A stretch of DNA of 64,000 nucleotides, from assembly GCF_002946835.1 (NCBI RefSeq), contig NZ_CP026652.1:558001-622000 (forward strand), given 5' to 3'. Positions within the stretch are counted from its first letter, which is position 1, and every line of letters begins with the position of its first letter. This document shows, in pieces, positions 7,899-27,680 of the stretch. The translations under genes and the position numbers were made by a program. Below the pieces are notes generated by a model. It was not told where the DNA came from and did not search any database. It saw only the letters and a list, made by a program, of their open reading frames with translations. This DNA comes from Streptomyces dengpaensis (lineage in GTDB: Bacteria; Actinomycetota; Actinomycetes; Streptomycetales; Streptomycetaceae).

Positions 7899-8359
7899 TG
7901 GACGAGAAGAGCCTGACGGACAAGAAGATGAGCAAGAGCGCGAAGACCAACCTCCTTCTGGTGCTGGCCGTGATCGCGCTGGCCGTGCTGCCGCTGGCCC
8001 TCGGTCTCGGCGACGACAAGGAGGAGCCGTTCACCGGGTCCGATGGCCAGGCCGAGACGGCGATCACCGAGATCGAGCCGGACTACGAACCCTGGTTCTC
8101 ACCCCTGTACGTGCCGCCGTCCGGCGAGATCGAGTCGGCGCTGTTCGCCCTCCAGGCGGCCATCGGCGCGGGCGTCCTCGCCTACTACTTCGGACTCCAC
8201 CGGGGACGCCGTCAGGGCGAGGCGCGGGCCCGGGAACGGCAGCAGGCCGAAAGTGCCGCGAGCGGCGCCGGGGAGTCCGGGGCCTCACAGGTCCCTGAAC
8301 CCTCACAAGTTCCCGGGGCCTCACAGGTTCCCGGGGCCTCTCAGGTCCCCGAGGCCTGA
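7898..8359 (+). CDS. cbiN: Cobalt transport protein CbiN
   Basis: A 153-residue CbiN, the small two-helix partner of CbiM. Helix one (NLLLVLAVIALAVLPLALG) lies at about residues 19-37 and helix two near residues 85-100 (ALQAAIGAGVLAYYFGLHRG); the loop between them contains the family motif EPWFSPLYVPPSGEIESALF. ATG 7898 overlaps the cbiM stop; the in-frame ATG at 7928 is an alternative start. The C-terminus is extended beyond usual CbiN by a charged stretch and four tandem hexapeptides of the SQVPxA type (8285-8356), encoded by 18-bp repeats. Confidence 0.92.
   Translation: MDEKSLTDKKMSKSAKTNLLLVLAVIALAVLPLALGLGDDKEEPFTGSDGQAETAITEIEPDYEPWFSPLYVPPSGEIESALFALQAAIGAGVLAYYFGLHRGRRQGEARARERQQAESAASGAGESGASQVPEPSQVPGASQVPGASQVPEA
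8285..8356 (+). repeat. Four 18-bp tandem repeats at the 3' end of cbiN
   Basis: Units 8285-8302, 8303-8320, 8321-8338 and 8339-8356 are near-identical 18-mers encoding SQVPEP, SQVPGA, SQVPGA and SQVPEA. They lie directly before the stop codon and keep the frame, so copy number can vary without harming CbiN. Confidence 0.9.
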
Positions 8360-8364
8360 GCCTC

Positions 8365-9114
8365 GTGCTGCCGATCGACGCGGCGGCGCACAGCAGTCGC
8401 TGGCGCCGCCGTCATCCCGTGGACAAGGCCGTGCTCGGGCTGGGGCTCACCGCGCTGGCGATCTCGCTGCCGCCCTGGCCGGGGGCCGCGCTGGTACTCG
8501 TGACGGCCGTGGCCGTGCTGCTCGGACCGGCGGGTGTGCCAGTGCGCAGGCTGTGGCGTGCCTACCGGGTGCCGCTGGGCTTCTGTGTGACGGGTGCGGT
8601 GACGCTGCTCGTGCAGGTCGGTGGTCCCGGCGGGTTCGTGGCGCTGGCCGACGGCGGGGCCGTACGGGCCGGTGAGCTGCTGTTGCGCTCCTCGGCCGCT
8701 TCCCTCGGCGTCCTGCTGTTCGCGTTCACGACGCCGATGTCCGACCTGCTGCCGCGCCTGGTGAAGGCCGGGGTGCCCGCGCCGGTCGTGGATGTGGCCC
8801 TGGTGACGTACCGCATGAGCTTCCTGCTGCTCGACTCCGTACGGCTGATCCGGGACGCGCAGGCCGCGCGGCTCGGGCACACGACCCGGGCCGCACAGTG
8901 GCGTTCCCTGGCCGGGCTCGGCGCCACCGCATTCGTCCGGTCCTTCGACCGGGCCGCGCGGCTCCAGGCCGGGCTCGCCGGACGCGGCTACGACGGGACA
9001 CTGCGTGTTCTGGTGCCCGAGGCCCATGTCTCCGTCCGGTTCACCGGGGCGAGTGTCGCCCTGCTCGCGGCACTGGCCGCCCTCACCTTCGTACTCGAAA
9101 GGCCGCTGACATGA
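8365..9114 (+). CDS. cbiQ: Cobalt ECF transporter T component CbiQ
   Basis: A 249-residue CbiQ/EcfT-type membrane coupling protein that links the ATPase to CbiM. It shows several hydrophobic helices followed by the cytoplasmic coupling helices; Ala-Arg-Gly-like signatures are visible around QAARLGHTT (about residues 168-176) and QAGLAGRGYDG (about 202-212). The GTG start at 8365 is only 5 bp after the cbiN stop. Its end overlaps the cbiO start by 4 bp (ATGA). The third gene of the riboswitch-controlled operon. Confidence 0.93.
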   Translation: MLPIDAAAHSSRWRRRHPVDKAVLGLGLTALAISLPPWPGAALVLVTAVAVLLGPAGVPVRRLWRAYRVPLGFCVTGAVTLLVQVGGPGGFVALADGGAVRAGELLLRSSAASLGVLLFAFTTPMSDLLPRLVKAGVPAPVVDVALVTYRMSFLLLDSVRLIRDAQAARLGHTTRAAQWRSLAGLGATAFVRSFDRAARLQAGLAGRGYDGTLRVLVPEAHVSVRFTGASVALLAALAALTFVLERPLT

Positions 9115-9974
9115 GCGAGCCCGCGCTGGTCGCCCTGCGGGGCGTGTCCTTCGCCTATGAGGACGGCCCCGCCGTGCTCAGCGATCTCGATTTCGCGGTG
9201 CGTGAGGGGCGCGCACTCGCTCTGCTCGGGCGCAACGGGAGCGGCAAGACGACGCTGATGCGGCTGCTCAGCGGCGGACTGCGGCCACGCTCCGGGGAGT
9301 TGGTGGTGGAGGGGCGGGCGGTCCGGTACGACCGCAAGGGGCTGACCCGGTTGCGGACAGCGGTCCAGCTGGTCGTCCAGGACCCGGACGACCAGTTGTT
9401 CGCCGCGTCCGTCGCCCAGGACATCTCGTTCGGGCCGCTGAACCTCGGCCTGCCCGACATCCAGGTACGGGCACGCGTCGCGGAGGCGCTCGCGGCCCTG
9501 GACATCACCGCTCTCGCCGACCGGCCCACCCACCTGCTCTCCTACGGGCAGCGCAAGCGGACGGCGATCGCGGGTGCCGTCGCCATGCGGCCGCGCGTCC
9601 TGATCCTCGACGAGCCGACCGCGGGGCTCGACCCGGACGGCCAGGAGCGGCTGCTCGCCACCCTCGACGGGCTGCGCGAGGGCGGCACCACCGTGGTGAT
9701 GGCCACGCACGACGTCGACCTCGCCCTGCGCTGGGCCGACGACGTGGCCCTGCTGACCCCGTCCGGCGTGCACACCGGGCCCGCGGCCCCGACGCTGGCC
9801 CGCACGGACCTCCTCCATCAGGCGGGGCTGCGCCTGCCGTGGGGCATCGCGGCGGCCGAAGTGCTGCGTGCGCAGGGCCTCCTGGCCGACACCGTTCCGG
9901 GACCACGCACCCCGGCCGAACTGGCCGCCCTGTCCCTGCCGCACAACACGCCCCGGATACCGGCCGATGGCTGA
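9111..9974 (+). CDS. cbiO: Cobalt ECF transporter ATPase CbiO
   Basis: A 287-residue ABC ATPase that powers cobalt import by CbiMNQ. Walker A is GRNGSGKTT at about residues 41-49, the Q-loop region is VQDPDDQLF, the signature is LSYGQRKR (a form typical of ECF ATPases) and Walker B plus D-loop is VLILDEPTAGLDP; the H-loop is MATHDVD. Canonical ATP-hydrolysis residues are all present. ATG 9111 overlaps the cbiQ stop. It is the last gene of the cbi operon; the following 189 bp up to the next gene show no convincing coding sequence. Confidence 0.95.
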   Translation: MSEPALVALRGVSFAYEDGPAVLSDLDFAVREGRALALLGRNGSGKTTLMRLLSGGLRPRSGELVVEGRAVRYDRKGLTRLRTAVQLVVQDPDDQLFAASVAQDISFGPLNLGLPDIQVRARVAEALAALDITALADRPTHLLSYGQRKRTAIAGAVAMRPRVLILDEPTAGLDPDGQERLLATLDGLREGGTTVVMATHDVDLALRWADDVALLTPSGVHTGPAAPTLARTDLLHQAGLRLPWGIAAAEVLRAQGLLADTVPGPRTPAELAALSLPHNTPRIPADG

Positions 9975-11347: not shown

Positions 11348-11932
11348 GTGCGGGTGCTGCCCGCACTCGCGCCGCTCGTCACGGACGGCGTGCAGCTGCG
11401 CGTCACGACGGGTCTGACCGATCAACTGCTCGAAGAGCTCAAAGCCGGACGCCACGACCTGGTCATCGCCACCACCCGCCCGCGTGGCCGGACCCTGACG
11501 GCGGTACCCCTGATGGACGAGGAGTTCGTCCTTGTCGCCGCCCCGGAGTGGGCCGATCGTCTCGCCGGCGGTGTGACCGCCGAGGGGCCGCGCGTCCTGC
11601 ACACCGTCCCCCTGATCACTTACGCCGAGGACGTTCCCATCGTCCGCCGCTACTGGCGCCACGTCTTCGAGCAGCGTCTGAACTGCCGTGCCGCCGTCAC
11701 CATGCCCGACTTGCGCGGCGTCCTCGCGGCAGTCACCGCCGGGGCCGGCTTCACGGTCCTCCCCCGGTATCTCTGCCAGGACGAACTCGCCTCCGGTGCC
11801 CTCGTCACCCTCCACGAGACCGACGACCCGCCCATCAACACGGCCTATCTCGTCCAACGCCCCGCCACCCCCGGAAATCCCCACGTCACCCTGGTGCGGG
11901 ACCGGCTCCTTGGCCTGGGTCCGTCCTGGTGA
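11348..11932 (+). pseudogene. LysR-family effector domain, N-terminus deleted
   Basis: The 194 residues from GTG 11348 match only the C-terminal effector-binding domain of a LysR regulator: RVLPALAPLVTDGVQLRVTTG at the start, DLVIATTRPRGRTL, then AVTAGAGFTVLPRYLCQ near residue 140. The helix-turn-helix region that should occupy about 90 residues upstream is absent; the preceding bases give no HTH in any frame. There is no ribosome-binding site at 11348. The 3' end overlaps the tail of the convergent Tap-like gene by 47 bp, so the local sequence looks rearranged on both sides. Confidence 0.75.
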
Positions 11933-13427
11933 CGTGGCCGACCGTGTACACGTCCTTGACCTTCACCTCGGCGACACCGCGGCCCTCCGGGAACACCCCG
12001 CGCCACTCCCCGGTCACGTGCAGCTCGTCGGTGCCCATCACGCGGACGACCGTCAGGCCCTCGTCGTATGCCTTGTAGGCCTTCATCCAGAGGTTGGCGA
12101 AGGCCTGGGAGCGGATGAGGTGCATCCAGTCGGGGCGGTACAGCTCCCGGTTGTAGTTCGACTCCCCCATCGTGGAGACGAACTTGGAGTACATCGCCTT
12201 CACATACTCCAGCATCATCTCGTCCTCGTCCGCGATGGCCCGGTCCCGGGCGTCCTTCAGCGCGACGCGGAACTTCTCCAGCAGGCCCTCCGTCGCCCCC
12301 GACGTGAACGACTCGTGGATTTCGGGCGGGTCGCACAGACCGTACTTCGGTGAGGACAGACGCAGCAGTAGGCGGAGGGTGGGTTCGGTCACCCACAGCG
12401 GCCCCGGCTCGTCCCTGTTCCCCAGCGGGTTGGGCAGGATCGCCTCGTGCTCCCACGCGGGCGGGGTGATCAGGTGGACGCCCGCGCGGCGGCGGTCGTG
12501 ATCGCCTCCCGTGGAGTGTTCCAGCTGGCCGATCGGCAAATGCGTCTTGAGCGCGGACAGGTAGGCGCCGTTGATGTCGAGCGCGGTCACCTCGTGCGCG
12601 CCGGGCGGGAGTTCCTCGCGCGCCCACTTGGGGCGGGCCTCCCAGATCTGGTCGGAACCGCGGGCGGACTGCTTGCGCAGGATGTCCGGGATCCAGGGGT
12701 GCGCCACGATGTCGTACCGCCCGCCCTTGCGGGTGGCGTCCAGCAACGCCATCGCGTCCGGGATCGCGCGCTTCAGCAACGCCGCTGTCGCCTCGTCGAC
12801 GTCGCCCTCGTGCTGGGCGAGCGCGGCCGCGACGGCCTCGCCGATCGGGTCGGGGGTGTCGGACGCGGCCCGCAGACGGCGCCCGGCGGGGACGACCTTC
12901 ACCGGCGTGTGCGGACCGGTGCTCTCGGACGGGTTGCCGGGCCTCGCGGGCCGCTTCGGCTGATCGGCCGCTGCCGTACGGCACTCGGCGGGGTCCAAGT
13001 GCTGCGGGAAGCCGGCGACCTGGTGGCGGGCCGGGCTGCCGCACAGAACGCAGGGTTCGGGCGCCGGGAGGGCTTCGACCTCGTCGGCGCCCCCTTCGTC
13101 CGCCGCGGCCTCACTGGCGCTGTCGTCGGTATCGGAGGCTGCGCAGGTGCCGGCGGGCGGAGCGCTGGCCGGTTCCTCGCGCTGGGCCTCCAGCTTGGTG
13201 CGGGCCCCGTCGAGGAAGTACGCGTACTTCTCGCGGACTTCGCCGCTCGGGTCCCGCCCGGACTCCCAGCCGCCGACCGTGGACGGGCTCACTCCGAGGA
13301 CCTGGGCCACCTGCGTGCGCGACACGTTCAACCCCTCACGCAGCGCCCGCCGTTCCTCCGCGGGTGGCAGCGGAACCTCCTGCCTGGCGCCGGCCAGCAG
13401 GGCGTCGATCGCGTCGAAGTCCGTCAT
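11886..13427 (-). CDS. Tap-like (telomere-associated protein family) HTH protein
   Basis: A 513-residue protein. Residues about 25-60 form an XRE-type HTH (NVSRTQVAQVLGVSPSTVGGWESG). A low-complexity linker follows with a possible zinc pair (EPCVLCGS). The C-terminal half contains ALDINGAYLSALKTHLPIG, LPNPLGNRDEPGPLWVTEPT, RPDWMHLIRSQAFANLWMKA and RVMGTDELHV, which I recognise from Tap, the Streptomyces protein that binds linear-replicon telomeres and recruits the terminal protein; it also recalls family-B polymerase-like DxN motifs. Tap is about 740 residues, so this copy is short. Its last ~15 codons are antisense to the LysR stump, suggesting loss of the true C-terminus. It is coupled to the HTH gene at 13424-13735. 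Assignment is from memory of the family. Confidence 0.55.
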   Translation of the reverse strand: MTDFDAIDALLAGARQEVPLPPAEERRALREGLNVSRTQVAQVLGVSPSTVGGWESGRDPSGEVREKYAYFLDGARTKLEAQREEPASAPPAGTCAASDTDDSASEAAADEGGADEVEALPAPEPCVLCGSPARHQVAGFPQHLDPAECRTAAADQPKRPARPGNPSESTGPHTPVKVVPAGRRLRAASDTPDPIGEAVAAALAQHEGDVDEATAALLKRAIPDAMALLDATRKGGRYDIVAHPWIPDILRKQSARGSDQIWEARPKWAREELPPGAHEVTALDINGAYLSALKTHLPIGQLEHSTGGDHDRRRAGVHLITPPAWEHEAILPNPLGNRDEPGPLWVTEPTLRLLLRLSSPKYGLCDPPEIHESFTSGATEGLLEKFRVALKDARDRAIADEDEMMLEYVKAMYSKFVSTMGESNYNRELYRPDWMHLIRSQAFANLWMKAYKAYDEGLTVVRVMGTDELHVTGEWRGVFPEGRGVAEVKVKDVYTVGHVTRTDPGQGAGPAPG

Positions 13428-13735
13428 CGTACGGCTCCCTGCTCCCGTACCGGCCGTACGGCGGCGCCGCGCCGGGCGGCCGTGCGGCGGCGGTCCTCCG
13501 GGAGGGCTTCGGAGGCCTGGGTCGGGCCGGCCATGAGGTCCAGATCGCTGATACCGAAGTGCGTGGCCACGGCCTCGCAGTCGGCCAGGCTCCAGGCGGC
13601 GGAACCGGACTGACGGCGGCTCACCTGGGCCTGGCTGACGCCCAGGGCGGCCGCCAGGTCGGTCTGCGACTCACCCGTGGCATGCAGAAGCGCTGCCACC
13701 GCCGATCGCACCCGTGCTTCCAGACTCATCCGCAT
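13424..13735 (-). CDS. Small XRE-family HTH regulator
   Basis: A 103-residue protein with one Cro/C1-type helix-turn-helix at about residues 18-45 (ESQTDLAAALGVSQAQVSRRQ) and a short basic tail. It overlaps the Tap-like gene downstream by 4 bp (stop 13424 over start 13427), so the two are one operon on the minus strand. Such pairs occur on actinomycete plasmids and integrative elements. No integrase, excisionase or attachment repeat was found nearby, so this may be a relic. Its 5' side faces the SWIM-like gene, giving a divergent intergenic region at 13736-13918. Confidence 0.75.
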   Translation of the reverse strand: MRMSLEARVRSAVAALLHATGESQTDLAAALGVSQAQVSRRQSGSAAWSLADCEAVATHFGISDLDLMAGPTQASEALPEDRRRTAARRGAAVRPVREQGAVR

Positions 13736-13918
13736 ACCGCCGAATCTACCACTTGAATCCCATTGGCCATGCGAATTACGAATACCAGGGTCTTCGTCTC
13801 AGGAGTGCGCTGCGCGGTCGCCCGTCCCTGATCCGGCGTTGTCAGTGGTCGCCACTATGTTCAGTCGTGTCCCGCCGTTGTGGCGCGGAAGTCCCTTTGG
13901 TGCAGAGGAGATGACGCA

Positions 13919-14422
13919 TTGTCAGATGGGGAGAAGTCGAGCACGGCACGGGTGATACCACCCGCACGGCCACGCAAGCTCGCCAAGGTCCCGTTCGTCG
14001 AGTTGGCCGACGGACGTCTGCAGGGCGTGGTGTCCAGCGGCTCGGACATCGAGCGGGTCTATGTCTCGTCGGTCGCGGCGGGCACCTACGCGTACGCGTG
14101 CAGCACCAACAACAACCGGCCGTGCGGCGGTGCGCGGGGCTCGTTCTGCAATCACATCCGGGCCCTGATCAACGAGGCGGTGCTGCAGTACGGCGCCGAG
14201 CGCGTCGCCCGCTACCTGAGGGTCGAGACCGTGGACGGGGAGCCGAGCGCGCACACCATCGCGTACGGCATGACCAGCGCCCGTCCGCCGCAGGGAGACA
14301 CCAAGGCCGCCGCGACCGTCTTCAGCAGGTTCCTGCGCCACCTGGCCTACCTCGAACTCGCCCCGACGACCGCACCGTTGCCGGAGATGCAGTGGTTTCC
14401 GCCGACCAGGGCGGCGGCGTGA
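13919..14422 (+). CDS. SWIM-like zinc-binding protein of the MoxR/VWA/DUF5682 cluster
   Basis: A 167-residue protein starting at TTG 13919, chosen because GAGGAG stands 8 bp upstream; a GTG at 13880 is in frame but poorly supported. Cys61, Cys69, Cys77 and His79 give a C-x8-C-x7-C-x-H arrangement resembling a SWIM zinc finger, within YACSTNNNRPCGG and SFCNHIRALI. The rest is mixed alpha/beta with no other recognisable domain. SWIM proteins are thought to bind DNA or protein. Its stop overlaps the next start (TGATG), so it is the first gene of a tightly coupled five-gene operon. The function of the whole set is unknown. Confidence 0.7.
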   Translation: MSDGEKSSTARVIPPARPRKLAKVPFVELADGRLQGVVSSGSDIERVYVSSVAAGTYAYACSTNNNRPCGGARGSFCNHIRALINEAVLQYGAERVARYLRVETVDGEPSAHTIAYGMTSARPPQGDTKAAATVFSRFLRHLAYLELAPTTAPLPEMQWFPPTRAAA

Positions 14423-15810
14423 TGCGGGCCGACCTGCTGATGGAATCCATCGACGGGCTCGACGAAGCCCTGGCGGCCGTCGACGCCCTTGACCGGGTGC
14501 TCGTCACCGGTCTGCTCCGCCCCCAGCCCGCTCAGGCCGCCGGCCTGACCGAGCTCGCCCACGCCGTGGCGGGGACGCCGCTGGCCGCCAGGGTCGCCGA
14601 GGCGGCCGAGAAGGCGGCGGCCGGAGCCGCGAGCGAGGACCACTTCGTCGTCCTCGCCGCCGCCCGCACCGCACTGCTCGGCTCCGTTCACGACGCGCTC
14701 ACCGCCCGCGTGGACGAGGCCACCGGCCGGACCCGCGGCGAGGAAACCGACCCGGCGCCCGGCGGGCAGCAAGCGGCGAACGTGCTCGCCGCCGCCCGCG
14801 CCTGGCTGTCCGACCTGGCACGCTCCGGGTGGCAGGGCATGGACCACGACCTGGTCTCCGGATCGGCACAAGTCGTCTCCGCGATGCTTCCGGACCCGGC
14901 GCTGCGCCGCCTGGCGACGCTCCTCGACGGCTTCGCCGCCGAACTCGCCGCATCCTGCCCGGGCGCGGCCCTGGAACGGATCCCGGTACGCCGGTGGGCC
15001 GACCTGTGGTCGCGCGCGATGCTCCTCACGCTGCCCGGCGCCGCGGACGCGCCCGCGACCAGTACGGTCACCGGCCGCCTCCTGCCCCTCGGCATCGATG
15101 TGCAGGAGCACACGACCGCCGTACAGGCCCAGGTCCACGCGGTGTTCGAGCCCGCGGACGGCGGCCCGTCCCTCCTGGTGCGTGCCGGTGTGTCGGCGCC
15201 GAAGCCCGACACGGTCGTCGGAGCCGGCCTCTGGCAGCTGCTCCGCCCCCACATGTCGCTGCTGGCGGCGGTCAGTGAGGGCCGCTCGATGGAGCTCGCA
15301 GACATGCCGGTCACCTCCGAGGGCGACCTGGTCTGGAGCGACGAGCACGCACGCCCGGGCGAGCCCGCCGACGCCTTCGTGACCGCCCGCGTCGCCCTGC
15401 CCACCGCCGCCGACTCGGCAATCGCACCGCTGGACCGACACCCGGCCCGCATCGCCGTGCCTGTCTTCCTGGAGGGCTATACGGCCCAGCAGGACGACGG
15501 CACGCTGACGTTCGGCGTCGCCGGACACCCGCTCGCCGTCGACACCGATCGCATGCCGACCGCCGGCCCGCTCACCCCCAAGGACGTCGCGGCGTCCGGC
15601 GCGTGCATCGGGCTGCTCCGGTGGGACGCGGGGGTTTTCAGCGTCCAGCCGCTCGCCGTCGAGACCACCGTGCGCAAGAAGGCCGTCGCGGTCCACGCCG
15701 GGGCATGGGCCGGCGGCACCACCGACAAGGCCGGAGCCAAGGCCGAGAAGGCCGCCACCGATGCCGTGACCGTGTTGCGCGAGCGCGCCGGAAGGCTGCT
15801 GCGGAAATGA
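14422..15810 (+). CDS. Uncharacterised 462-residue protein of the MoxR/VWA/DUF5682 cluster
   Basis: An Ala/Leu-rich, largely helical 462-residue protein that I cannot assign to a characterised family. No signal peptide, membrane helix, Walker motif or metal cluster is visible. The middle (about residues 130-300) holds helical segments such as RAWLSDLARSGWQGM and LRRLATLLDGFAAELAA; the C-terminus is rich in Ala and Lys (KKAVAVHAGAWAGGTTDKAGA). ATG 14422 overlaps the preceding stop (TGATG), with an in-frame GTG at 14419, and the stop overlaps the next start (ATGA). Co-translation with VWA and MoxR genes suggests a scaffold or adaptor role, which is inference. Confidence 0.7.
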   Translation: MRADLLMESIDGLDEALAAVDALDRVLVTGLLRPQPAQAAGLTELAHAVAGTPLAARVAEAAEKAAAGAASEDHFVVLAAARTALLGSVHDALTARVDEATGRTRGEETDPAPGGQQAANVLAAARAWLSDLARSGWQGMDHDLVSGSAQVVSAMLPDPALRRLATLLDGFAAELAASCPGAALERIPVRRWADLWSRAMLLTLPGAADAPATSTVTGRLLPLGIDVQEHTTAVQAQVHAVFEPADGGPSLLVRAGVSAPKPDTVVGAGLWQLLRPHMSLLAAVSEGRSMELADMPVTSEGDLVWSDEHARPGEPADAFVTARVALPTAADSAIAPLDRHPARIAVPVFLEGYTAQQDDGTLTFGVAGHPLAVDTDRMPTAGPLTPKDVAASGACIGLLRWDAGVFSVQPLAVETTVRKKAVAVHAGAWAGGTTDKAGAKAEKAATDAVTVLRERAGRLLRK

Positions 15811-17282
15811 CCCATCCGACCACTGCCCCGGCGACCGACCCGACGATCGCGCAGACCTCCGAGGCGGACGCGCACGACAACCGCCGCCAAGTCCTGTACT
15901 GGCGGCTCCTCGCCCGCCTCTTCGACCACGAGGAGCAGGCCACGCTGGAATCGTCGAGCCTCGCCGTCGTCGAGGACATCGGTCTGCCGTCCGCGCTCCT
16001 CGACCCGCAGGCCTCCGTCGACTCGATCGTGCAGCGCCACCCGGAGCTGGCCGCCGAGTTCGACGGTCTGATGGCGCCCGAGCCCGAGCCCGACACCAAC
16101 GGCGACACCAACGGCGACGGCGACGCTGCCGGACGCGACCGGGCCGCCGAAGTCCGGCGCGCCGCGCTCGTCTCCAAGGTGCTGCTCAACGTCTTCGCCT
16201 CCGGCTCCGGCACGGTCACCGCAGGGCAGCTGGCGCGCTGGCAGTCCGACGCGGGCTGGCTGGAGCGCGCGCTCGGCTGCCGGCCGGGCGAGCTCCGCGG
16301 CGGCCGCGCCGCGGGAGGCGGGGCGGGCGCAGGCGTCAGCCCGACCGGCACCGGCGGCCGGGGCACGACGCCCGATCTCAGCCGGCTGATTCCGGCGATC
16401 GGCCCGGAACTCGGCGCCATCGAGGCCGAGCTCGTCAAGCGGATGCACCTGCGCGAGGTGCTCGCCGACCCCAAGCTCGCCGCGCAGCTGACCCCGAGCA
16501 TGTCGCTGATCGAGCAGTTGCTGCGGGACAAGAACAATCTCTCGGGTGTGGCCCTGGCCAATGCCAAGGCCCTGATCCGGCGCTTCGTCGACGAGGTCGC
16601 CGAAGTGCTGCGCACGCAGGTGGAGAAGTCCGCGGTGGGCGCCCTGGACCGCTCGGTCCCGCCCAAGCGGGTGTTCCGCAACCTCGACCTCGACCGCACG
16701 ATCTGGAAGAACCTCACCAACTGGAGCCCGGAGGAGGAGCGGTTGTACGTCGACCGCCTCTACTACCGGCACACCGCGCGCAAGACGACACCCCAGCGGC
16801 TGATCGTCGTCGTGGACCAGTCGGGCTCGATGGTCGACTCGATGGTGAACTGCACCATCCTGGCGTCGATCTTCGCCGGGCTGCCGAAGGTGGACGTCCA
16901 CCTGATCGCGTACGACACACAGGCGCTCGACCTCACGCCATGGGTGCACGACCCCTTCGAGACCCTGCTGCGCACCAACCTCGGGGGCGGCACCGACGGC
17001 ACGGTCGCCATGGCACTGGCCCAGCCGAAGATCGCCGAGCCCCGCAACACGGTCGTGGTGTGGATCTCCGACTTCTACGAATGGCGGACCGAGCCGCTGT
17101 TCGAGTCCATGGCCGCCATTCACCGCTCGGGGGCCAAGTTCATTCCGGTCGGCTCGGTGACCAGTTCCGGCCGCGGCAGTGTCAACCCGTGGTTCCGGGA
17201 GCGCTTCAAGGACCTCGGTACGCCGGTGCTCTCCGGCCACATCCGCAAGCTCGTCCACGAACTCAAGACGTTTCTCGCTTAA
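15807..17282 (+). CDS. VWA-domain protein, MIDAS intact
   Basis: A 491-residue protein. The C-terminal ~170 residues are a von Willebrand A domain with a full MIDAS metal site: Asp337-x-Ser339-x-Ser341 in VDQSGSM, Thr396 in GGGTDG and Asp422 in WISDFYE. The N-terminal half is helical with a Gly-rich linker near residues 165-190 (GRAAGGGAGAG). VWA proteins of this type act as partners of MoxR AAA ATPases, binding substrates through a divalent metal. ATG 15807 overlaps the previous stop by ATGA, and the moxR gene starts 29 bp after its stop. No signal peptide, so cytoplasmic. Confidence 0.9.
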   Translation: MTHPTTAPATDPTIAQTSEADAHDNRRQVLYWRLLARLFDHEEQATLESSSLAVVEDIGLPSALLDPQASVDSIVQRHPELAAEFDGLMAPEPEPDTNGDTNGDGDAAGRDRAAEVRRAALVSKVLLNVFASGSGTVTAGQLARWQSDAGWLERALGCRPGELRGGRAAGGGAGAGVSPTGTGGRGTTPDLSRLIPAIGPELGAIEAELVKRMHLREVLADPKLAAQLTPSMSLIEQLLRDKNNLSGVALANAKALIRRFVDEVAEVLRTQVEKSAVGALDRSVPPKRVFRNLDLDRTIWKNLTNWSPEEERLYVDRLYYRHTARKTTPQRLIVVVDQSGSMVDSMVNCTILASIFAGLPKVDVHLIAYDTQALDLTPWVHDPFETLLRTNLGGGTDGTVAMALAQPKIAEPRNTVVVWISDFYEWRTEPLFESMAAIHRSGAKFIPVGSVTSSGRGSVNPWFRERFKDLGTPVLSGHIRKLVHELKTFLA

Positions 17283-17311
17283 GACTTTTCCTGACTCAGA
17301 AAGGCCCTGTT

Positions 17312-18424
17312 ATGTCTGACCTGTTGCGCGCCCCTGCCGAGATCAAGTTCGCCGAGGAGCTGGACTGGCTGGAGTCCGTCGACGACAACCCCAAGCCCTT
17401 CTCCTGGCGCCTGTCCCCGAAGATGGTCCGCCTGTTCGTCCTGGGCTCCGAGCGCTCCGACGGCCTGGACCGGGAGATCTCGCAGAAGTGGTTCGGCGAC
17501 CGCAGCTTCGTCGAGCGCTCCATCGTCACGCTGGCCTCCGACCGCGGACTGCTGCTGATCGGCGACCCCGGCACCGGCAAGAGCTGGCTGGCCGAGCTGC
17601 TGTCGGCCGCGATCTCCCGCAATTCCACCCAGGTGGTGCAGGGCACGGCCGGCACCACCGAGGACCACATCAAGTACTCCTGGAACGTGTCCATGGTCAT
17701 CGCCAAGGGCCAGTCGCGGGAGTCGATGATCCCCTCGCCGATCATGACGGCGATGGAGACCGGCACGATCGGCCGTTTCGAGGAACTCACCCGCTCCACC
17801 AGCGACGTCCAGGACGCGTTGATCTCGATCCTGTCCGAGAAGTACATCTCCGTGCCGGAGCTGGACAGCGACAACATCGTCTTCGCCAAGCCCGGCTTCT
17901 CGGTCATCGCCACCGCCAACAGCCGCGACCGGGGCGTCAACGACCTGTCCTCGGCGCTCAAGCGCCGCTTCAACTTCGTCCGCATTCCGGTGGTCACGAA
18001 CAAGAAGAGCGAGGCGGAGATCGTCCGCTTCCGCACCGAGGAACTGCTGCGCCGCCACCAGATCGAGCTGGATGTGCCGCCGACGCTGCTCGACGTGCTG
18101 CTGCAGAGCTTCGCCGACCTGCGTGCCTCGGCGGCCGCGGCCGGCAGCGACGACGAGAAGCTGGAGTCCGCGCTGTCCACCGCCGAGCAGATCGGCGTAC
18201 TGGAGGACGCGATCCTGCACAGCAACTTCTTCGGCGAACGTGCCCTGACCGCCCACACGCTGGCCTCCTCGCTCGTCGGATCGCTGGCGCGCCGCGAGCC
18301 GGAGGACCTGGCCATCCTCAACAAGTACCTGCACGGCGTCGTCGAGCCACGCAGCAAGGAAGAGGGCGGATCCTGGCCGGAGTTCCTGGAGGGCGGCCGC
18401 GACGCGATCGCCACCCTGTCATGA
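17312..18424 (+). CDS. MoxR-type AAA ATPase
   Basis: A 370-residue AAA+ protein. Walker A is GDPGTGKS at residues 84-91. The Walker B region reads GRFEELTRSTSDVQDAL, with the acidic pair FEE in place of the usual DE. Sensor 1 is VIATANSRD, and the arginine-finger region is SSALKRRFNFVRIP. It is therefore expected to hydrolyse ATP and remodel or activate a partner, as MoxR proteins do together with VWA proteins. The start is ATG 17312, after AGAAAGG. The stop overlaps the start of the DUF5682 gene (ATGA). It is the engine of the five-gene cluster. Confidence 0.9.
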   Translation: MSDLLRAPAEIKFAEELDWLESVDDNPKPFSWRLSPKMVRLFVLGSERSDGLDREISQKWFGDRSFVERSIVTLASDRGLLLIGDPGTGKSWLAELLSAAISRNSTQVVQGTAGTTEDHIKYSWNVSMVIAKGQSRESMIPSPIMTAMETGTIGRFEELTRSTSDVQDALISILSEKYISVPELDSDNIVFAKPGFSVIATANSRDRGVNDLSSALKRRFNFVRIPVVTNKKSEAEIVRFRTEELLRRHQIELDVPPTLLDVLLQSFADLRASAAAAGSDDEKLESALSTAEQIGVLEDAILHSNFFGERALTAHTLASSLVGSLARREPEDLAILNKYLHGVVEPRSKEEGGSWPEFLEGGRDAIATLS

Positions 18425-21246
18425 GCGGCACCGACGGCCGCACGCTCACGAGCGGCGCAGACGAGGGGACGTTCACCGGGCTCCGTACTCAACTCCAGGA
18501 AGCCGCCCAGACGTTCGCCGACGGACCGGACGCCCTGGAGGGCATCCTCCTCGGCATCGTCGACGACGTCGACCGCGCGGTGCGCGAGCCGCTGGAGATC
18601 TTCCCCGTCTGCCACCACTCGCCCGCCTCCGCGCTCGCGATGGCCCGCCGCCTGCGGGAGAAGCAGCCGAAGGTCGTGTACCTGGAGCTGTGCGAGGACA
18701 TGGCGCCGCTGCTGACCGAACTGCGCAACTGCAAGCTCCCGGTGGCGGTCCAGGCGTTCGCGTCCGAAGTCGACGGCTTCCCGGCCGAGTGGTCCCCGCT
18801 GTCGGTGGTCGCGCCGATCACCGAGGCCTCGGCCGAATACCAGGCGATCGCCTACGCACTGGACACGCCGGGCGTCGAACTGGTCCTCGTCGACCGTTCC
18901 TCCGATCACGTCTTCCAGTGGGACGCACGCGCGGAGCACTCCGAGGGGCCGGCCGACCCGGACGCACCGGCCGCCGAGGAGGAGGCCGCGCTGCACGGCG
19001 ACGCGGTCGGCGTCGAGATCGGCGACCTGCGGCCGCGCTTCGCCGAACTGGAGGAGCACCTGCTGCGTCACGGCAGGGTGCGGCACTGGTCGGAGTGGTG
19101 GCACCAGTACGTCGAACTGCCGCTCGGCGACAGCGACCACGACACCTACCGCCAGGTCATGCTCCTGATCGGCAGCCTCTTCCGGCGCCTCGCACCCGGC
19201 GACCCCCATCGGGTGCGCGTGGACGAGGACCGCGAGCGCTACATGTGGACCAGGATGCGCGAGCATCTGACCGCGACCGGCACCGATCCCGCGGACTGCC
19301 TGTACGTCTGCGGCGCCTTCCACGCGGCCAGCCCCGTCGAGGAGTTCGGCGTCCACGGCTCCGGCACCTTCGAGATCAGCCCGCGCAGTGCCACCAAGTG
19401 GCAGCACGGCCTGATTCCGTCGAGCCACGCGGCGATCGAGGCGCAGTTCGGCCTCGCCGCGGGCTCGGTGTCGATCGCTGAGACCGTCTGGGCGAAGAAC
19501 GTCAGGCGCACGCGCGTGGAGCCGTACCGCCTGGCGGGACAGGCAGGTGCGAAGAAGTCGAAGGCCAAGAAGAAGACGGCGGCCGCTCCCGTGCAGGAGG
19601 TCGCTCCGTCCGACAAGCTGACCGGCTTCCTGCGGCGACCGCCCGTGCTGGACCGGCTGGACGAGGCCGAACTGCTCGGCTGGTCGGTGGAGATCGTGCG
19701 CGCCACGCGCCGCAACGGCTATCTCGCGTCCACCGCCGACGCCATCGCGGTGTTCGAGACGTCGATCCTGCTGGCCGGGATGCGCGACCGGGCCAAGCCG
19801 ACGCCGTACGACTTCCAGGACGCGGCCGTCACCTGTATCGAGAAGGACACCGTGCCCGGCCGACGCGACGTCCGCCGCCTGGTCGAGATCATGATGGGCG
19901 GCGACCGGATCGGCCAGGTCGGCTACGACGCGCTGCCACCCCTGGCCCGCGACGTGCACGACCGGCTCGCGCCGCTGAACCTGAAGCTCCAGCAGCGCGG
20001 TGTGCAACGGGCGCTGCTGGACATAGCGTCCCAGCCGGAACTGGGGCAGTGCTCCGACGTGCTGTGGATGCTGCGGTACCTGATGCCGCAGGGCGCCGCT
20101 CGCCCGATCATGGGCGAGCGGACACTGGACGAACGGCCGATCCAGGAGTCGTGGGACCTGGCGCTGGGCACCCACCAGCGTGCGCTCATCGAGCTCGGCT
20201 ACGAGGGCGTCAGCATCGAGCAGGTCCTGGAACAGCGCCTGCGCCGCACGGCGTACGGCCCGCAGGCCACCGCGGCGACCGTCCTGCAAGCCGTCGAGGA
20301 CGCGACGCTGTACCTGCGCAGCCGGCGTCTCGCCGACGAGCTGGGCACGCGCGCTCTGGAGGTGCTGTCGGCCGAACGCAGCGTCGACGGCGCGCCGGAG
20401 GTGCTGCGCCGGGTGCGGCGGCTGCTGGCGTACTACCGCACCAGCGAGCCGTTGCTGCCACCGTGGATCGAGTCCTTCGTCAAGACCGGGTACGCGCATT
20501 ACTGCACCCTGCTGCCGACGGCGTTCACCGACGAGGACGCCACTGTCCGTCAAGTGGCGGCGATGCTGGGCTTCTTGTTCAGCATGGAGAGCCTGGCGCT
20601 GTCGCTGGGGTGCGACCGGACCCAACTGGAGCTGGCGGTCGCCCAGTCGCATCCGGAGGATCCGTCGAAGACGGCGCTGCTGTGGGCGGCTCAGACGCAG
20701 CTCGGGTACCTCTCCCGCGCGGACCTTCGGGCGCGGTGCGACGAACTGCTCGGCAACCCCTTGGTGGTGCCCGCCTATCCGCGCTACCTCAGCGGCTTCG
20801 TCCACGCCCTGGAGCCCGTCCCGGGCCTCACCGACTTCGTCGTGGAGGCAGTGTCGAACGCGTTCGGACGGCTGCCGGACCCGGTGCTCCTGCCGTGGCT
20901 GCCGACCCTGATCAGCACCCTGCGTTCCGGGGGCGCCGACCTGGCCCCGCTGCTGATCCGCGAGGCGGGACGGATCTTCCCCGGCCGGCTCGCGGCGCTG
21001 GACGAGTGGGTGCCGCCGTGGCGCGCGCGGCCGGAGCCGCTGTCCGTGCGTCCAGCCCGGCGCGCGGACGTCGGCCCGGGTGCCGCCCTGCTCGCCGCCC
21101 ACCCCGCGACGTGCGACGCGGTGGCGACTCTGCTGGGCTGCGACGGGACATGGGAGACGGCGGATCCCGGCCCGCAGGGCGCGGCACTGCTCGGTCGCCA
21201 TCCGGACACGGCGGTGGCACTGGAGGCGCTGCTGGCCGTCCGGTGA
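18421..21246 (+). CDS. DUF5682 family protein
   Basis: A 941-residue protein, the last gene of the cluster. The N-terminal part recalls the TraB/TIKI/EreA-ChaN superfamily: FPVCHHSPASALAMARRL with His65-His66, then VVYLELCEDM about 25 residues on, and a second site YVCGAFHAA with His301. Those His/Glu positions are where superfamily members bind metal or catalyse hydrolysis, so a hydrolytic activity is possible but unproven. Residues about 370-390 are a Lys/Ala-rich linker (AKKSKAKKKTAA). The remaining ~550 residues are helical and repeat-like. ATG 18421 overlaps the moxR stop. A hydrolase-like head joined to a large helical body suggests a target recognised through the C-terminus. Confidence 0.82.
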   Translation: MSGTDGRTLTSGADEGTFTGLRTQLQEAAQTFADGPDALEGILLGIVDDVDRAVREPLEIFPVCHHSPASALAMARRLREKQPKVVYLELCEDMAPLLTELRNCKLPVAVQAFASEVDGFPAEWSPLSVVAPITEASAEYQAIAYALDTPGVELVLVDRSSDHVFQWDARAEHSEGPADPDAPAAEEEAALHGDAVGVEIGDLRPRFAELEEHLLRHGRVRHWSEWWHQYVELPLGDSDHDTYRQVMLLIGSLFRRLAPGDPHRVRVDEDRERYMWTRMREHLTATGTDPADCLYVCGAFHAASPVEEFGVHGSGTFEISPRSATKWQHGLIPSSHAAIEAQFGLAAGSVSIAETVWAKNVRRTRVEPYRLAGQAGAKKSKAKKKTAAAPVQEVAPSDKLTGFLRRPPVLDRLDEAELLGWSVEIVRATRRNGYLASTADAIAVFETSILLAGMRDRAKPTPYDFQDAAVTCIEKDTVPGRRDVRRLVEIMMGGDRIGQVGYDALPPLARDVHDRLAPLNLKLQQRGVQRALLDIASQPELGQCSDVLWMLRYLMPQGAARPIMGERTLDERPIQESWDLALGTHQRALIELGYEGVSIEQVLEQRLRRTAYGPQATAATVLQAVEDATLYLRSRRLADELGTRALEVLSAERSVDGAPEVLRRVRRLLAYYRTSEPLLPPWIESFVKTGYAHYCTLLPTAFTDEDATVRQVAAMLGFLFSMESLALSLGCDRTQLELAVAQSHPEDPSKTALLWAAQTQLGYLSRADLRARCDELLGNPLVVPAYPRYLSGFVHALEPVPGLTDFVVEAVSNAFGRLPDPVLLPWLPTLISTLRSGGADLAPLLIREAGRIFPGRLAALDEWVPPWRARPEPLSVRPARRADVGPGAALLAAHPATCDAVATLLGCDGTWETADPGPQGAALLGRHPDTAVALEALLAVR

Positions 21247-21381: not shown

Positions 21382-22318
21382 ATGGCGGATGTCCAGGGCG
21401 AGTTAGTGCGGGCGCTGCCCGGCACCTTGCGGGAGCACGCGGCACGGCGGGGCGGCAAGACCGCCCACCGGGACGCCCGTCGCGCCGTCTCCTACGCGGA
21501 GTGGGAGGAGCGCACCGGCCGGCTGGCGGGGCACCTGGCGCGGCTCGGGATCCGGCGCGGGGACCGGGTCGCGATCCATCTGGGCAGCCGGGTGGAGCTG
21601 GTGGAGAGTTGCCTCGGCGTGCTGCGGGCCGGCGCCATCGGCGTACTGCTCAATCCCGGCGCGTCGGACGAGGAGTTGGCGTACCTCCTCGACGAGAGCG
21701 GCGCGGTCCTGGTCGTCACCGAGGAGCCGCTGCTGCCGCGGGTCGCCCGACTGGCCGCGTGGCGGCCCGGGTTACGGGTGGTGGTCGCCACGTCGGGCCC
21801 GTCCCGGCCGAAGCGCTCACCTCCCCGGCCGACACGCTCGCCTCCCCCGCCGACACGCTCACATCCCCTGCCGACACGCTCACCTTCGAGGAGCTGGCCG
21901 GAACGGATCCGGGCCTGGCGCCCCGGGACGATCTCGGCCTCGACGATCCGGCCTGGATCCTCTACACCTCAGGCACCACGGGCAAAAGCAAGGGCGCCAT
22001 CTCCACGCAGCGTTCCGCCCTGTGGGCGGTGGCCGCGGCGTACGTACCGGCGTTCGGGCTGCGGGAGCGGGACCGGCTGCTGTGGCCCCTGCCGATGTTC
22101 CACGCCTACGCCCACTCGCTGTGCCTGCTGGGGGTGGTCTCGGTCGGTGCGAGCGCCCACCTCCTCGACCGGGGCGCGAACGTCGCTCAGGCACTCGCGG
22201 CGCAGCCGTTCACCATGCTGGCCGGAGTGCCCGCCACCTACCGCCTGCTGCTGGACTCGCTGCGCGAGACGCCGGCACCCGTGCCCCCTTCTCTGCGGGT
22301 GTGCCTCACCGGGGGCGC
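21382..22318 (+). pseudogene. Acyl-CoA/AMP ligase, frameshifted and 3'-truncated
   Basis: The frame from ATG 21382 encodes the N-terminus of an ANL-superfamily ligase (VSYAEWEERTGRLAGHL, RRGDRVAIHLGSRVELVES) up to about residue 135. Family sequence then continues one frame over from about 21790, with the AMP-binding P-loop YTSGTTGKSKGA and LPMFHAYAHSLCLLGVV, until CLTGGAA near 22310, where it stops abruptly. The C-terminal hinge, catalytic lysine and the rest are missing. A 3x21-bp tandem repeat lies next to the frameshift. What follows is a thioesterase fragment, so this looks like a loading-module ligase left after a polyketide synthase collapsed. Confidence 0.75.
21819..21881 (+). repeat. 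Three 21-bp tandem repeats in the ligase remnant
   Basis: Units 21819-21839, 21840-21860 and 21861-21881 are near-identical 21-mers. In the ligase frame that resumes at about 21790 they encode TSPADTL, ASPADTL and TSPADTL. They lie just 3' of the frameshift. Confidence 0.85.
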
Positions 22319-22805
22319 GGCGCCACCTCGGCGACCGCCCGTACGTCGTCGTGGGTCACTCCATGGGCGGAACGGTCGCACACGCCATCGCCACACGTCT
22401 GGCGGCCGACGGCACGCCCCCGGCCGGGCTCGTCCTGGTGGACTCGTACCACATCACCCCTGACCGGGAGGCCGAACCGTGGCTGCTGGCCCTGCCCGCC
22501 CGGATCCCGCTCACCATCGGTGACGGTTCGACACCGCGGTGGACGACCTGACGCTGCTGTCACTGGGCGCGTACACCCGGATCTTCCGCGGCTGGCATCC
22601 GGAGCCGACGGATGTTCCCACGCTGCTGGTGCGCGCCACGGAGCCACTGCCGCACATGCCGGATCAGTGGCAGTCCTCCTGGCCCGGCCCGCACGACACG
22701 GCGGACGTCCCCGGCACCCATCTGAGCATGCTCGAGAACCACGCCACGACGACGGCCGAAGCCATCCGCGGATGGATCGAAGCGCTCGGCCCGGCGGCCG
22801 GGTGA
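22319..22805 (+). pseudogene. Polyketide-synthase-type thioesterase fragment
   Basis: Starting at about 22319 the sequence abruptly becomes an alpha/beta-hydrolase thioesterase as found at the end of type I PKSs: HLGDRPYVVVGHSMGGTVAHA with the GHSMG nucleophile elbow, then LAADGTPPAGLVLVDSY. A one-base shift near 22520-22526 breaks the frame. The family continues from about 22527 as FDTAVDDLTLLSLGAYTRIF, through WPGPHDTADVPGTHLSML, which carries the catalytic-His region, to a stop at 22805. The nucleophile Ser and active-site His therefore lie in different frames, and the enzyme cannot be made. Joined head-to-tail with a ligase remnant, it suggests that a large multimodular gene between them was deleted. 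Confidence 0.75.
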
Positions 22806-26439: not shown

Positions 26440-27680
26440 TAGTGCTGTGACCGCATAGGTTCGCCGGGTTGGTGGTCGTGGCGGTTGGATGTGCGGTGAC
26501 ATCCGATCTGATCGCTGGAGGCGTGGTGGCTGAGCCTGTCCGTGTGCGCAGACTGACCGACCAGGAGGGGCGGCGTCTGCAGCAGATCGTGCGCCGTGGC
26601 AGTACGAGTTCGGTGCGCTATCGGCGGGCGATGATGCTGCTGGCCTCGGCCGGCGGGAACCGTGTGCCGGTGATCGCCCAGCTGGTGCAGGCCGACGACG
26701 ACACCGTGCGCGATGTGATCCACCGGTTCAACGAGATCGGCCTGGCCTGCCTGGACCCTCAATGGGCGGGAGGCCGTCCCCGCCTGCTCAGCCCTGACGA
26801 CGAGAACTTCGTCATCCAGACGGCCACCACCCGCCCCGCCAAGCTCGGCCAGCCCTTCACCCGCTGGTCGCTGCGCAAACTCGTCGCCTACCTGCGCAAA
26901 GTCCACGGCCGGGTGATCCGAATCGGCCGCGAGACCTTACGCGGCCTGCTCGCCCGCCGCGGCGTGACCTTCCAGCGGACCAAGACCTGGAAGGAGTCCA
27001 CCGACCCTGAGCGCGACGCCAAGCTCGACCGGATCGAGTACGTCCTGGAGAACTTCCCCGACCGCGTATTCGCTTTTGACGAGTTCGGCCCGCTGGGCAT
27101 CCGCCCCACCGGGGGAGCCTGCTGGGCCGGGCAGGGCCGCCCCGACCGAGTCCCGGCGACCTACCACCGCACCCACGGCGTCACCTACTTCCACGGCTGC
27201 TACTCGATCGGCGACGACACCTTGTGGGGCGTCAACCGCCGTCGCAAGGGAGCGGCCAACAGCCTGGCCGCACTCAAGTCCGTCCGGGCCGCCCGCCCGG
27301 ACGGCGCCCCGATCTACGTGATCCTGGACAACCTCTCCGCGCACAAGGGCACGAAGATCCGCCGGTGGGCGCAGAAGAACAAGGTCGAGCTGTGCTTCAC
27401 CCCGACCAACGCCTCCTGGGCCAACCCGATCGAGGCGCACTTCGGGCCACTGCGGCAGTTCACCCTCGCCAACTCCCACCATCCGAACCACACAGTCCAG
27501 ACCCGTGAGCTGCACGCATACCTGCGCTGGCGCAACACCAACGCCCGCCACCCCGACGTCCTGGCCGCCCAACGCAAAGAACGCGCCCGCATCCGCAGCG
27601 AGAAAGGCATCCGCTGGGGCGGACGCGCCCTCGCCGACGCGGCCTGACCCAACCGGCGAACCTATGCGGTCACAGCACTA
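26440..27680 (+). mobile_element. IS630-family insertion sequence
   Basis: A 1.24-kb element bounded by near-perfect inverted repeats of about 28 bp: TAGTGCTGTGACCGCATAGG at the left end and its reverse complement at the right end (27653-27680). The flanks read C-TA ... TA-G, that is, a CTAG target with TA duplicated, the hallmark of IS630. One transposase gene fills it. It has landed between the divergent sth and acyl-CoA ligase genes, 31 bp before the sth start codon. Confidence 0.93.
26469..27647 (+). CDS. IS630-family transposase
   Basis: A 392-residue transposase, apparently intact. An N-terminal HTH region (about residues 40-130) precedes the DDE domain. The first Asp lies in FAFDEFGPLGIRP, the second in VILDNLSAHKG and the Glu in ASWANPIEAHFGPLR, the normal DDE order and spacing of IS630. 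The frame is open from 26469; GGAGG just before GTG 26526 makes that an equally good start, shortening the protein by 19 residues. No frameshift or stop disturbs the gene, so the element is probably still active or a recent arrival. Confidence 0.93.
   Translation: MVVVAVGCAVTSDLIAGGVVAEPVRVRRLTDQEGRRLQQIVRRGSTSSVRYRRAMMLLASAGGNRVPVIAQLVQADDDTVRDVIHRFNEIGLACLDPQWAGGRPRLLSPDDENFVIQTATTRPAKLGQPFTRWSLRKLVAYLRKVHGRVIRIGRETLRGLLARRGVTFQRTKTWKESTDPERDAKLDRIEYVLENFPDRVFAFDEFGPLGIRPTGGACWAGQGRPDRVPATYHRTHGVTYFHGCYSIGDDTLWGVNRRRKGAANSLAALKSVRAARPDGAPIYVILDNLSAHKGTKIRRWAQKNKVELCFTPTNASWANPIEAHFGPLRQFTLANSHHPNHTVQTRELHAYLRWRNTNARHPDVLAAQRKERARIRSEKGIRWGGRALADAA

Follow-up and report, generated by a model that had tools for sequence, protein, structure and literature searches.

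What does an operon do that joins a MoxR ATPase and a VWA protein to a zinc protein, a 462-residue protein and a member of the family DUF5682? The question is raised by a stretch of 64,000 nucleotides from Streptomyces dengpaensis (contig NZ_CP026652.1, positions 558,001 to 622,000), referred to here as the window, which begins 558 kb into a contig of 8.5 Mb, in a genome of 8.7 Mb. Within the window, five co-oriented open reading frames on the + strand span positions 13919-21246 and encode, in order, a SWIM-like zinc protein, a 462-residue protein, a VWA protein, a MoxR protein and a DUF5682 protein. An earlier note, made from the sequence alone, regarded these as a candidate undescribed system with a possible role in conflict or stress defence. 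The analysis presented here suggests, with a probability of roughly 0.6, that the cassette is a DNA-damage-inducible, ATP-driven remodelling machine of the YehL/YehP/YehM kind with a hydrolase-like subunit.

A damage-type promoter upstream of the operon

Upstream of the first gene, 57 nt from its TTG start, the + strand carries the promoter element TTGTCAGTG-N8-TATGTT (13839-13861). It matches exactly the RecA-independent, or PafBC, consensus tTGTCRgtg-8nt-TannnT, which is associated with LexA/RecA-independent damage induction in mycobacteria in the available part of PMC5656591; the regulator in the present host is taken by analogy. PafBC acts via the RecA-NDp motif, according to the accessible text of PMC6789036.

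The element was sought as TTGTCRGTG-N8-TAnnnT in 79 upstream regions, those of the window and of 78 named loci. The named loci are the top 80 by similarity from at least 557, a choice that under-represents distant taxa, and two of them without a SWIM gene (L070 and L080) were left out. The first sign of the element was an 8-mer found upstream in 67 of the 79 loci. The full element is present in 78 of the regions, with 64 exact copies, 13 with one mismatch and one with two, and is absent only from L083; on the reverse strand of these regions the count was 0, and after shuffling the mean was 0. A second set was taken from 100 other genomes drawn evenly from the genus, or 101 with the host's own. 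Here the element precedes the SWIM gene with at most one mismatch at 22 of 22 loci, exactly at 18, and 12 control stretches totalling 238,812 bp held a single match of this quality. Since at least six of the 22 loci share a contig with a named locus, the sets are not independent of each other. Outside the genus, the element is exact at loci of Streptoalloteichus, Sphaerisporangium and Actinophytocola, and has one mismatch at those of Saccharopolyspora and Amycolatopsis. Upstream matches to LexA, CIRCE, HAIR, SigR and other patterns were at or near expectation, and a Zur-like pattern was found in 4 of 79 regions against 0.9 expected.

Judged from this promoter, DNA damage most likely induces the operon. 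The stress half of the "conflict or stress" proposal thus survives in one form, that of an upstream DNA-damage-type promoter, which the earlier note did not contain.

The element across Streptomyces genomes

The host genome contains 32 exact sites and none for the reversed pattern. Other sites precede recA, uvrB, ruvC, dnaX and a second DUF5682 cluster. Twenty of the 32 first genes behind the sites were scanned with Pfam, two of the remaining 12 being the DUF5682 clusters, and half of those scanned are DNA repair, replication or DNA-precursor genes. The ten encode RecA, ThyX, DnaX, an AlkZ-like protein, MGMT, UvrB, RuvC, MgsA, a DEAD helicase and a protein with a RecD2-type HHH domain. The element also stands before two YjbR genes, a DUF4253, a DUF2797 and a SUKH-4 gene. 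It was found in all 61 Streptomyces genomes searched, with 11-44 sites in each and the reversed pattern occurring 0 or 1 times. Ahel and co-workers are said to have described, in 2002, a TTGTCAGTGGC motif in the recA promoter of Streptomyces rimosus.

Two adjacent WYL proteins of 341 residues each (C1:7056570 and C1:7057549) form a PafB-PafC-like pair in the host genome, their orthology being putative. The likeness to the mycobacterial PafBC regulon lies in the exact promoter consensus, as given in the part of PMC5656591 at hand; PafBC is the regulator there, whereas in Streptomyces it is a candidate regulator by consensus match.

Kinship with yehLMPQ and the four architectures

The kind of system is already known by sequence, since the MoxR, VWA and DUF5682 proteins are homologues of YehL, YehP and YehM. 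In Escherichia coli K-12, yehL, yehM, yehP and yehQ encode MoxR, DUF5682, VWA and SWIM proteins, respectively. The MoxR AAA+ ATPase (17312-18424, +; 370 residues; PF07728, AAA_5, 126.5 bits) shares 40.5% identity with YehL over 343 residues (E 3.9e-74), and YehL is one of seven recognised MoxR subfamilies in the accessible text of PMC3893208. The CoxE-type VWA protein (15807-17282, +; 491 residues) scores 102.4 bits with PF05762, against a cut-off of 26.4, and is 31% identical to YehP over 257 residues (E 1.8e-38). For the DUF5682-like protein (18421-21246, +), the N-terminus is 30% identical to YehM over 104 residues, and an hhalign comparison gave a probability of 94.4% and an E value of 8.9e-8 over 435 columns. 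The claim that the system is undescribed therefore holds only in part: its kind is known from yehLMPQ, and no published function for YehL or its partners was found in the literature searched, which mostly lacked subscription papers, so that earlier work may exist. Neither DUF5682 nor a SWIM-zinc-finger/MoxR operon gave a literature match in a search that mostly left subscription papers outside.

The E. coli cluster, with yehI, resembles the cassette in grouping MoxR, DUF5682 and VWA homologues with a SWIM protein (YehQ). It differs in gene order, in containing the YehI/DUF4132 gene that the cassette lacks, and in the size of its DUF5682 protein (759 residues in YehM, 941 in the window); the SWIM-like part of the window, unlike that of yehLMPQ, is a separate gene for 167 residues with a C-x7-C spacing. 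Natural fusions of the SWIM-like and 462-residue proteins, one of which occurs in Streptomyces noursei (L050), measure 617-690 residues, and YehQ 614. In E. coli the cluster is near-core, with 5162 of 5426 genomes holding at least 80% of yehLMPQ, and its 22-kb region contains no LexA-like box of the form CTGT-N8-ACAG.

Four architectures can be distinguished. Type A, in E. coli and at L146, combines a WGR/DUF4132 (YehI-like) gene with MoxR, DUF5682, VWA and a YehQ-like gene; type B, at L151 and in the host's own genome (L004), has SWIM, DUF5691, MoxR, DUF5682 and VWA genes. Type C, at L144, L145 and L147, consists of a protein of 1584-1683 residues, MoxR, a DUF5682-VWA fusion and a protein of 616-639 residues, and type D is the window cassette. 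The type C fusion at L144 (8344-12072) is a single protein of 1242 residues, and the same cluster holds a protein of 1683 residues without a Pfam match. By sequence, all four architectures in Streptomyces carry the damage-type promoter: it lies at 1063 (+) in L144 and 1041 (+) in L145 for type C, at 3939 (+) in L146 for type A, and at 12257 (+) and 12218 (-) in L004 for type B. The two copies in L004 form a divergent promoter, of which the MoxR-facing copy has CA for TA in its -10 element. Canonical (type B) loci of Streptomyces have an element with at most one mismatch beside MoxR, in the divergent region, in eight of nine cases.

The second DUF5682 protein of the host belongs to this canonical cluster and scores 998 bits. 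A canonical copy is present in nine of nine Streptomyces sampled (973-1005 bits), whereas the window type is patchy, occurring in three of them with scores of 98.6-99.1 bits. The canonical cluster of the host shares with the window MoxR, DUF5682, VWA and a SWIM protein, the last by homology to L151, together with the same damage-type promoter, there present in both directions. It differs in possessing DUF5691, and its MoxR and VWA proteins are 44% and 31% identical to those of the window.

Distribution of the cassette

The five genes are a cassette whose members travel together while their flanks change. They occur in the same order at 78 of the 80 named loci, the exceptions L070 and L080 being cut by contig ends, and in the window order at all 22 genus loci with full-length DUF5682; the co-inheritance on which the earlier note had staked its case is thereby supported. 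DUF5682 adjoins MoxR in every one of these 22 and 80 loci. No flanking gene family is common to more than 4 of 24 compared loci, or to more than 10 of the 80 named ones. In 42 of 78 cases upstream and 51 of 79 downstream, nothing related to the adjoining gene lies close to another locus.

Full-length DUF5682 of the window type was found in 22 of the 100 other genus genomes. Any DUF5682 match at all was found in 25 of the 101, one of these being a remnant at L039 and one a canonical cluster. The remnant (L039, 9873-10028) is a 53-residue match to the C-terminus of DUF5682, the rest of the cassette being absent, and probably represents cassette loss. A phylum-wide sample gave full-length matches in 5 of 296 genomes, three of them in the genus. 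The closest named relatives are Streptomyces; the hosts among the named loci include Saccharopolyspora, Streptoalloteichus, Sphaerisporangium and Amycolatopsis, and close relatives are also recorded under Nocardia, Actinomadura, Nonomuraea and Micromonospora. The median identity of the MoxR proteins is 95.7%. In the weakly resolved DUF5682 tree, rows from outside the Streptomycetaceae fall within the Streptomyces radiation, which is suggestive of transfer; the tree has four label changes, one of them forced by starred branches, against a shuffled mean of 8.7.

The DUF5682 protein

An alpha/beta domain resembling those of TIKI, TraB and Ere proteins is predicted at residues 44-316 (18550-19368, +), with the motif residues H65 and H66, E89, R271-E272-xx-M275 and G298-xx-H301. 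The positions that the earlier note gave for His65-His66 and for GAFHA with His301 were correct. None of H65, H66, E89, R271 and H301 varies in the 81 family rows, made up of the window and 80 loci. The protein has what is expected of the TIKI/TraB/Ere signature in a His after strand 1, a Glu at the end of strand 2, and an Arg ahead of the C-terminal His, which in this group stands about 24-33 residues before it. A comparison of 29 DUF5682 rows, including two row pairs from the same locus, left out five with truncated starts; the remaining 24 all have the full set of motifs, with Glu at +24 and RE..M 24-30 residues before the His. Ere proteins have R[DE]xxM in 10 of 14 cases, 28-33 residues before the His where both were found, and TraB proteins carry a GTxH motif. 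The best structural match of the N-terminal region is also TIKI/TraB/Ere-like.

The N-terminus of DUF5682 therefore appears to resemble TIKI/TraB/Ere proteins such as RRSP, Bcr135 and TraB: His, Glu, Arg and the C-terminal His follow one another at similar intervals, and the predicted alpha/beta fold may be shared. DUF5682 differs from them in the absence of the first Glu, in the additional adjacent His66 and in a large helical C-terminus, which includes a HEAT/ARM-like repeat region predicted at residues 601-854 (20221-20982, +). DUF5682 proteins of the four architectures are only about 26-35% identical, and the invariance of HH, E, RE..M and GxxH at this distance suggests an active or ligand-binding site.

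Searches of PDB sequences with the DUF5682, MoxR and VWA proteins gave no matches, and E. coli YbaP, compared with PDB sequences in order to name a Tetrahymena chain, gave no useful one. Foldseek found nothing with E below 0.001 among viral structures. The TraB family was present in 0 of 21 relatives and 1 of 119 genomes of the phylum, and the ChaN-type family in 0 of 119.

The other cassette proteins

The reading frames of the operon are tightly joined, as the earlier note had stated: by TGATG at 14420-14424, ATGA at 15807-15810, a gap of 29 bp at 17283-17311 and ATGA at 18421-18424. Across the five genes, differences at third codon positions are 2.5-10.2 times those at second positions, a pattern expected of selected proteins. 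A Pfam hmmscan assigned VWA_CoxE to gene 3 and AAA_5 to gene 4, and placed genes 1, 2 and 5 in no family above cut-off; in a genome search with the PF18934 model, gene 5 scored 98.7 bits (cut-off 26) over model positions 3-472 of 727.

The residues of the metal-ion-dependent adhesion site (MIDAS) of the VWA protein (D337, S339, S341, T396 and D422) and the Walker A motif of MoxR (GDPGTGKS from residue 84) lie where they had been read. D337, S339, S341 and D422 are identical in 81 of 81 rows. At position 396, 62 rows have Thr and 19 have Asn, so this MIDAS position is not invariant.

The SWIM-like protein (13919-14422, +) has 167 residues from its TTG start. A GTG at 13952 would give 156 residues, and the TTG falls inside a conserved stretch despite this alternative. 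Its putative zinc site (14099-14155, +) is formed by C61, C69, C77 and H79, all four identical in 79 of 79 rows (the window and 78 loci for this protein). The zinc motif had been read correctly as to its ligands; its spacing is C-x7-C-x7-C-x-H rather than CxC...CxH, and the Pfam SWIM model does not match it. The 462-residue protein (14422-15810, +) has a helical middle and a C-terminal beta region, and its database version starts ten codons earlier, at 14392, to give 472 residues. The gene caller read the two genes as one frame in 19 of the 80 named loci. In an AlphaFold2 model of a fused homologue, of modest pLDDT, the SWIM part has strands at 47-53 and 59-63 and a helix at 78-91, and residues 390-605 correspond to a predicted tandem region like the oligonucleotide/oligosaccharide-binding (OB) fold at residues of about 210-425 of the window protein (15049-15696, +). 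Profile-profile comparisons of the 462-residue protein with YehQ, DUF5691, the 639-residue type C protein, the 442-residue SWIM protein of L151 and an L040 protein gave nothing significant.

A proposed mechanism

A PafBC-type, RecA-independent promoter would drive a single operon for MoxR, VWA, the zinc/helical/beta protein and DUF5682. By analogy with NorQ-NorD, whose VWA finger has been placed in the pore of the hexamer (PMC9976466), the VWA protein may plug the MoxR hexamer and grip a target through its MIDAS, and ATP hydrolysis by MoxR could then change the shape of that target. The SWIM-like and 462-residue pair would recognise the target, perhaps a nucleic acid or nucleoprotein bound via the tandem OB-like part, and DUF5682 would dock through its helical repeats. 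Its TIKI-like domain, with H65/H66, E89, R271 and H301, might cut a bond in the opened target, or DUF5682 itself might be the activated client. The outcome would be survival or recovery after DNA damage. The likeness to NorQ-NorD, RavA-ViaA and CoxD-CoxE consists of a MoxR ATPase with a VWA partner and its MIDAS; these pairs have other clients, and no TIKI-like or SWIM partner is described for them in the parts of the literature at hand.

More tentatively, MoxR-VWA-SWIM-DUF5682 might be an unrecognised DNA-damage-tolerance machine, in which an AAA+-powered complex with a DNA-binding SWIM/OB subunit and a TIKI-class hydrolase opens and cuts damaged or stalled nucleoprotein. This possibility, which we hold with less than even confidence, would cover four architectures from E. 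coli to Streptomyces, all four of which, in Streptomyces, would belong with recA, uvrB and ruvC to one PafBC-type regulon. Data from Deinococcus are indirectly consistent with a damage link outside the actinobacteria. In the accessible sections of PMC8533742, the DUF4132 protein DRA0166 is among the genes raised on depletion of DdrO, the damage-response repressor; irradiated irrE-deleted cells showed no increase in these genes, and MolR is described as a LexA regulon member.

A number of observations weigh against the damage-inducible machine proposed here. A promoter match is not induction, and PMC5656591 reports that ClgR, too, recognises this promoter. An initial search did not find the Mycobacterium smegmatis PafBC motif conserved in Streptomyces venezuelae, as stated in the available text of PMC9380542. 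At L037 and L038, the most divergent of the 22 genus loci, the element has one mismatch and lies about 150-175 nt from the start rather than about 60. No element with at most one mismatch was found at the canonical locus L126, which ends 38 bases past its MoxR gene, at L147, L148, L150 and L151, or at L133-L143, several of which are short and may end before the promoter. The distance from site to first gene in the host genome reaches 1337 nt in some cases. Ten of the 20 scanned first genes are not obvious repair genes, namely those for ribosomal protein S6, two YjbR proteins, a sigma factor, a SUKH-4 protein, an isochorismatase, three DUF proteins and one without a match; ssb follows rpsF.

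The protein assignments have weak points of their own. The full 2His/2Glu catalytic set (ExH, E, H), as defined in the accessible part of PMC6254334, is incomplete, since the first Glu is replaced by I or V in the DUF5682 rows. Profile-profile comparison of DUF5682 with Ere and TraB was not significant (P 0.29 and 0.30), a test without power, since the pair Ere and TraB reached 0.57 and an unrelated control pair, Ere and VWA, 0.11. Membership of the TIKI/EreA group, as first proposed, is backed by conserved His/Glu/Arg/His and the best structural match, one of the four 2His/2Glu residues being absent and the profile comparison showing nothing. The SWIM-462 pair aligned with YehQ at colinear places without significance (hhalign E 0.035 and 0.14), another run giving nothing useful, and the OB-like structural matches have middling Z scores.

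Alternative explanations

The missing Glu invites a reading in which the TIKI-like domain binds without catalysing, the whole system being either a regulated scaffold or a machine that takes stalled nucleoprotein apart. A TIKI-fold protein without the catalytic set, PMT, provides a precedent (PMC6254334, part available), and the residue two before the first His is indeed I or V instead of Glu. We consider this rather unlikely when set against HH, E, RE..M and GxxH, which stay invariant over four architectures at some 26-35% identity. Another reading is favoured by the CoxE model being the best match of the VWA protein: a maturation chaperone of the CoxD-CoxE/NorQ-NorD kind would insert metal into, or remodel, a single client, DUF5682, with the damage promoter as one of several controls. 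The position of DUF5682, the sole enzyme-like member, beside MoxR at all genus and named loci fits this, as does the WGR/DUF4132 gene that adjoins MoxR in type A. The molR gene presumably maps to the yeh region. MolR has the same WGR domain and is linked to molybdate use in E. coli, as cited in the parts of PMC8533742 and PMC4245954 at hand. The flank clusters, however, reveal no redox enzyme or cofactor gene family travelling with the cassette, and the damage-type promoter recurs at all four Streptomyces architectures; this explanation seems unlikely.

A role in conflict defence, as put forward in the earlier note, gained no support from phage records, viral contigs, the VWA C-terminus, the near-core status of the E. 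coli cluster or the flanks. Its most explicit form is an antiphage system in which MoxR and VWA set a threshold and DUF5682 is the effector, after the published MoxR-vWA ternary conflict systems with VMAP, iSTAND and bpMoxR components (PMC7159879, in the part available). The presence of MoxR, vWA and a third protein is common to both, and the patchiness, changing positions and occurrence of the cassette in many mycelial actinomycetes would suit such a role. The cassette differs in its YehL-type MoxR, in lacking a variable vWA C-terminus and in having no such component above the Pfam cut-off: PF20030 scored 13.9 bits against a cut-off of 27, and hmmscan of the five proteins gave nSTAND3/nSTAND6 below cut-off only, on the MoxR protein, and listed no VMAP family. 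The C-terminal end of the VWA protein does not move in 77 of 81 rows and extends a single residue further in the other four, a constancy that argues against a variable effector, and the high median identity of MoxR and the near-core E. coli homologue also speak against this role. No match was found in 50,697 phage records, and the 72 pattern matches in viral contigs included no relative; five records of a plasmid collection matched, of 0.93-11.9 Mb.

In a coarse test, PADLOC was run on 149 of 150 genes within 4 kb of the cassette at the 22 genus loci and, as a control, on 130 of 172 genes lying some 100 kb off in a number of these genomes. Flank genes gave 41 families and control genes 14, a difference that by itself would favour defence. 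Twenty of the 25 flank families listed were PD-T4-6 models, each matched by two or three of the same few genes, and the others were mad2, mad3, mad6, MkoA and a kinase model; PD-T4-6 is a kinase family. The control stretches themselves held mad2, mad3, mad8 and an AbiEi/AbiEii pair. The comparison is unconvincing as a sign of a defence island and is counted as no support rather than as disproof. The antiphage explanation is improbable, and the damage promoter offers a better account than defence.

Neighbouring genes

Two helix-turn-helix genes (11886-13427 and 13424-13699, -) diverge from the operon, and none of the other 23 loci in the comparison holds a relative of either. Just 3' of it, at 21382-22551 (+), is a reading frame with an AMP-binding N-terminus and a thioesterase-like C-terminus, and a DDE_3 transposase lies about 5 kb downstream of the cassette (26526-27647, +). 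The stretch at 7200-9974 (+) encodes a CbiM-type metal uptake component (7200-7898) and an ABC ATPase (9111-9974).

Significance for the Streptomyces damage response

The compact set of sites found throughout Streptomyces is at odds with the 2022 remark on S. venezuelae in PMC9380542, and bears on the RecA/LexA-independent damage response of Streptomyces, which that paper, in its available part, left unresolved. For the system itself, the conserved damage-type promoter before four architectures provides a concrete and cheap hypothesis, and with it a testable role for a system that has lacked an explanation.

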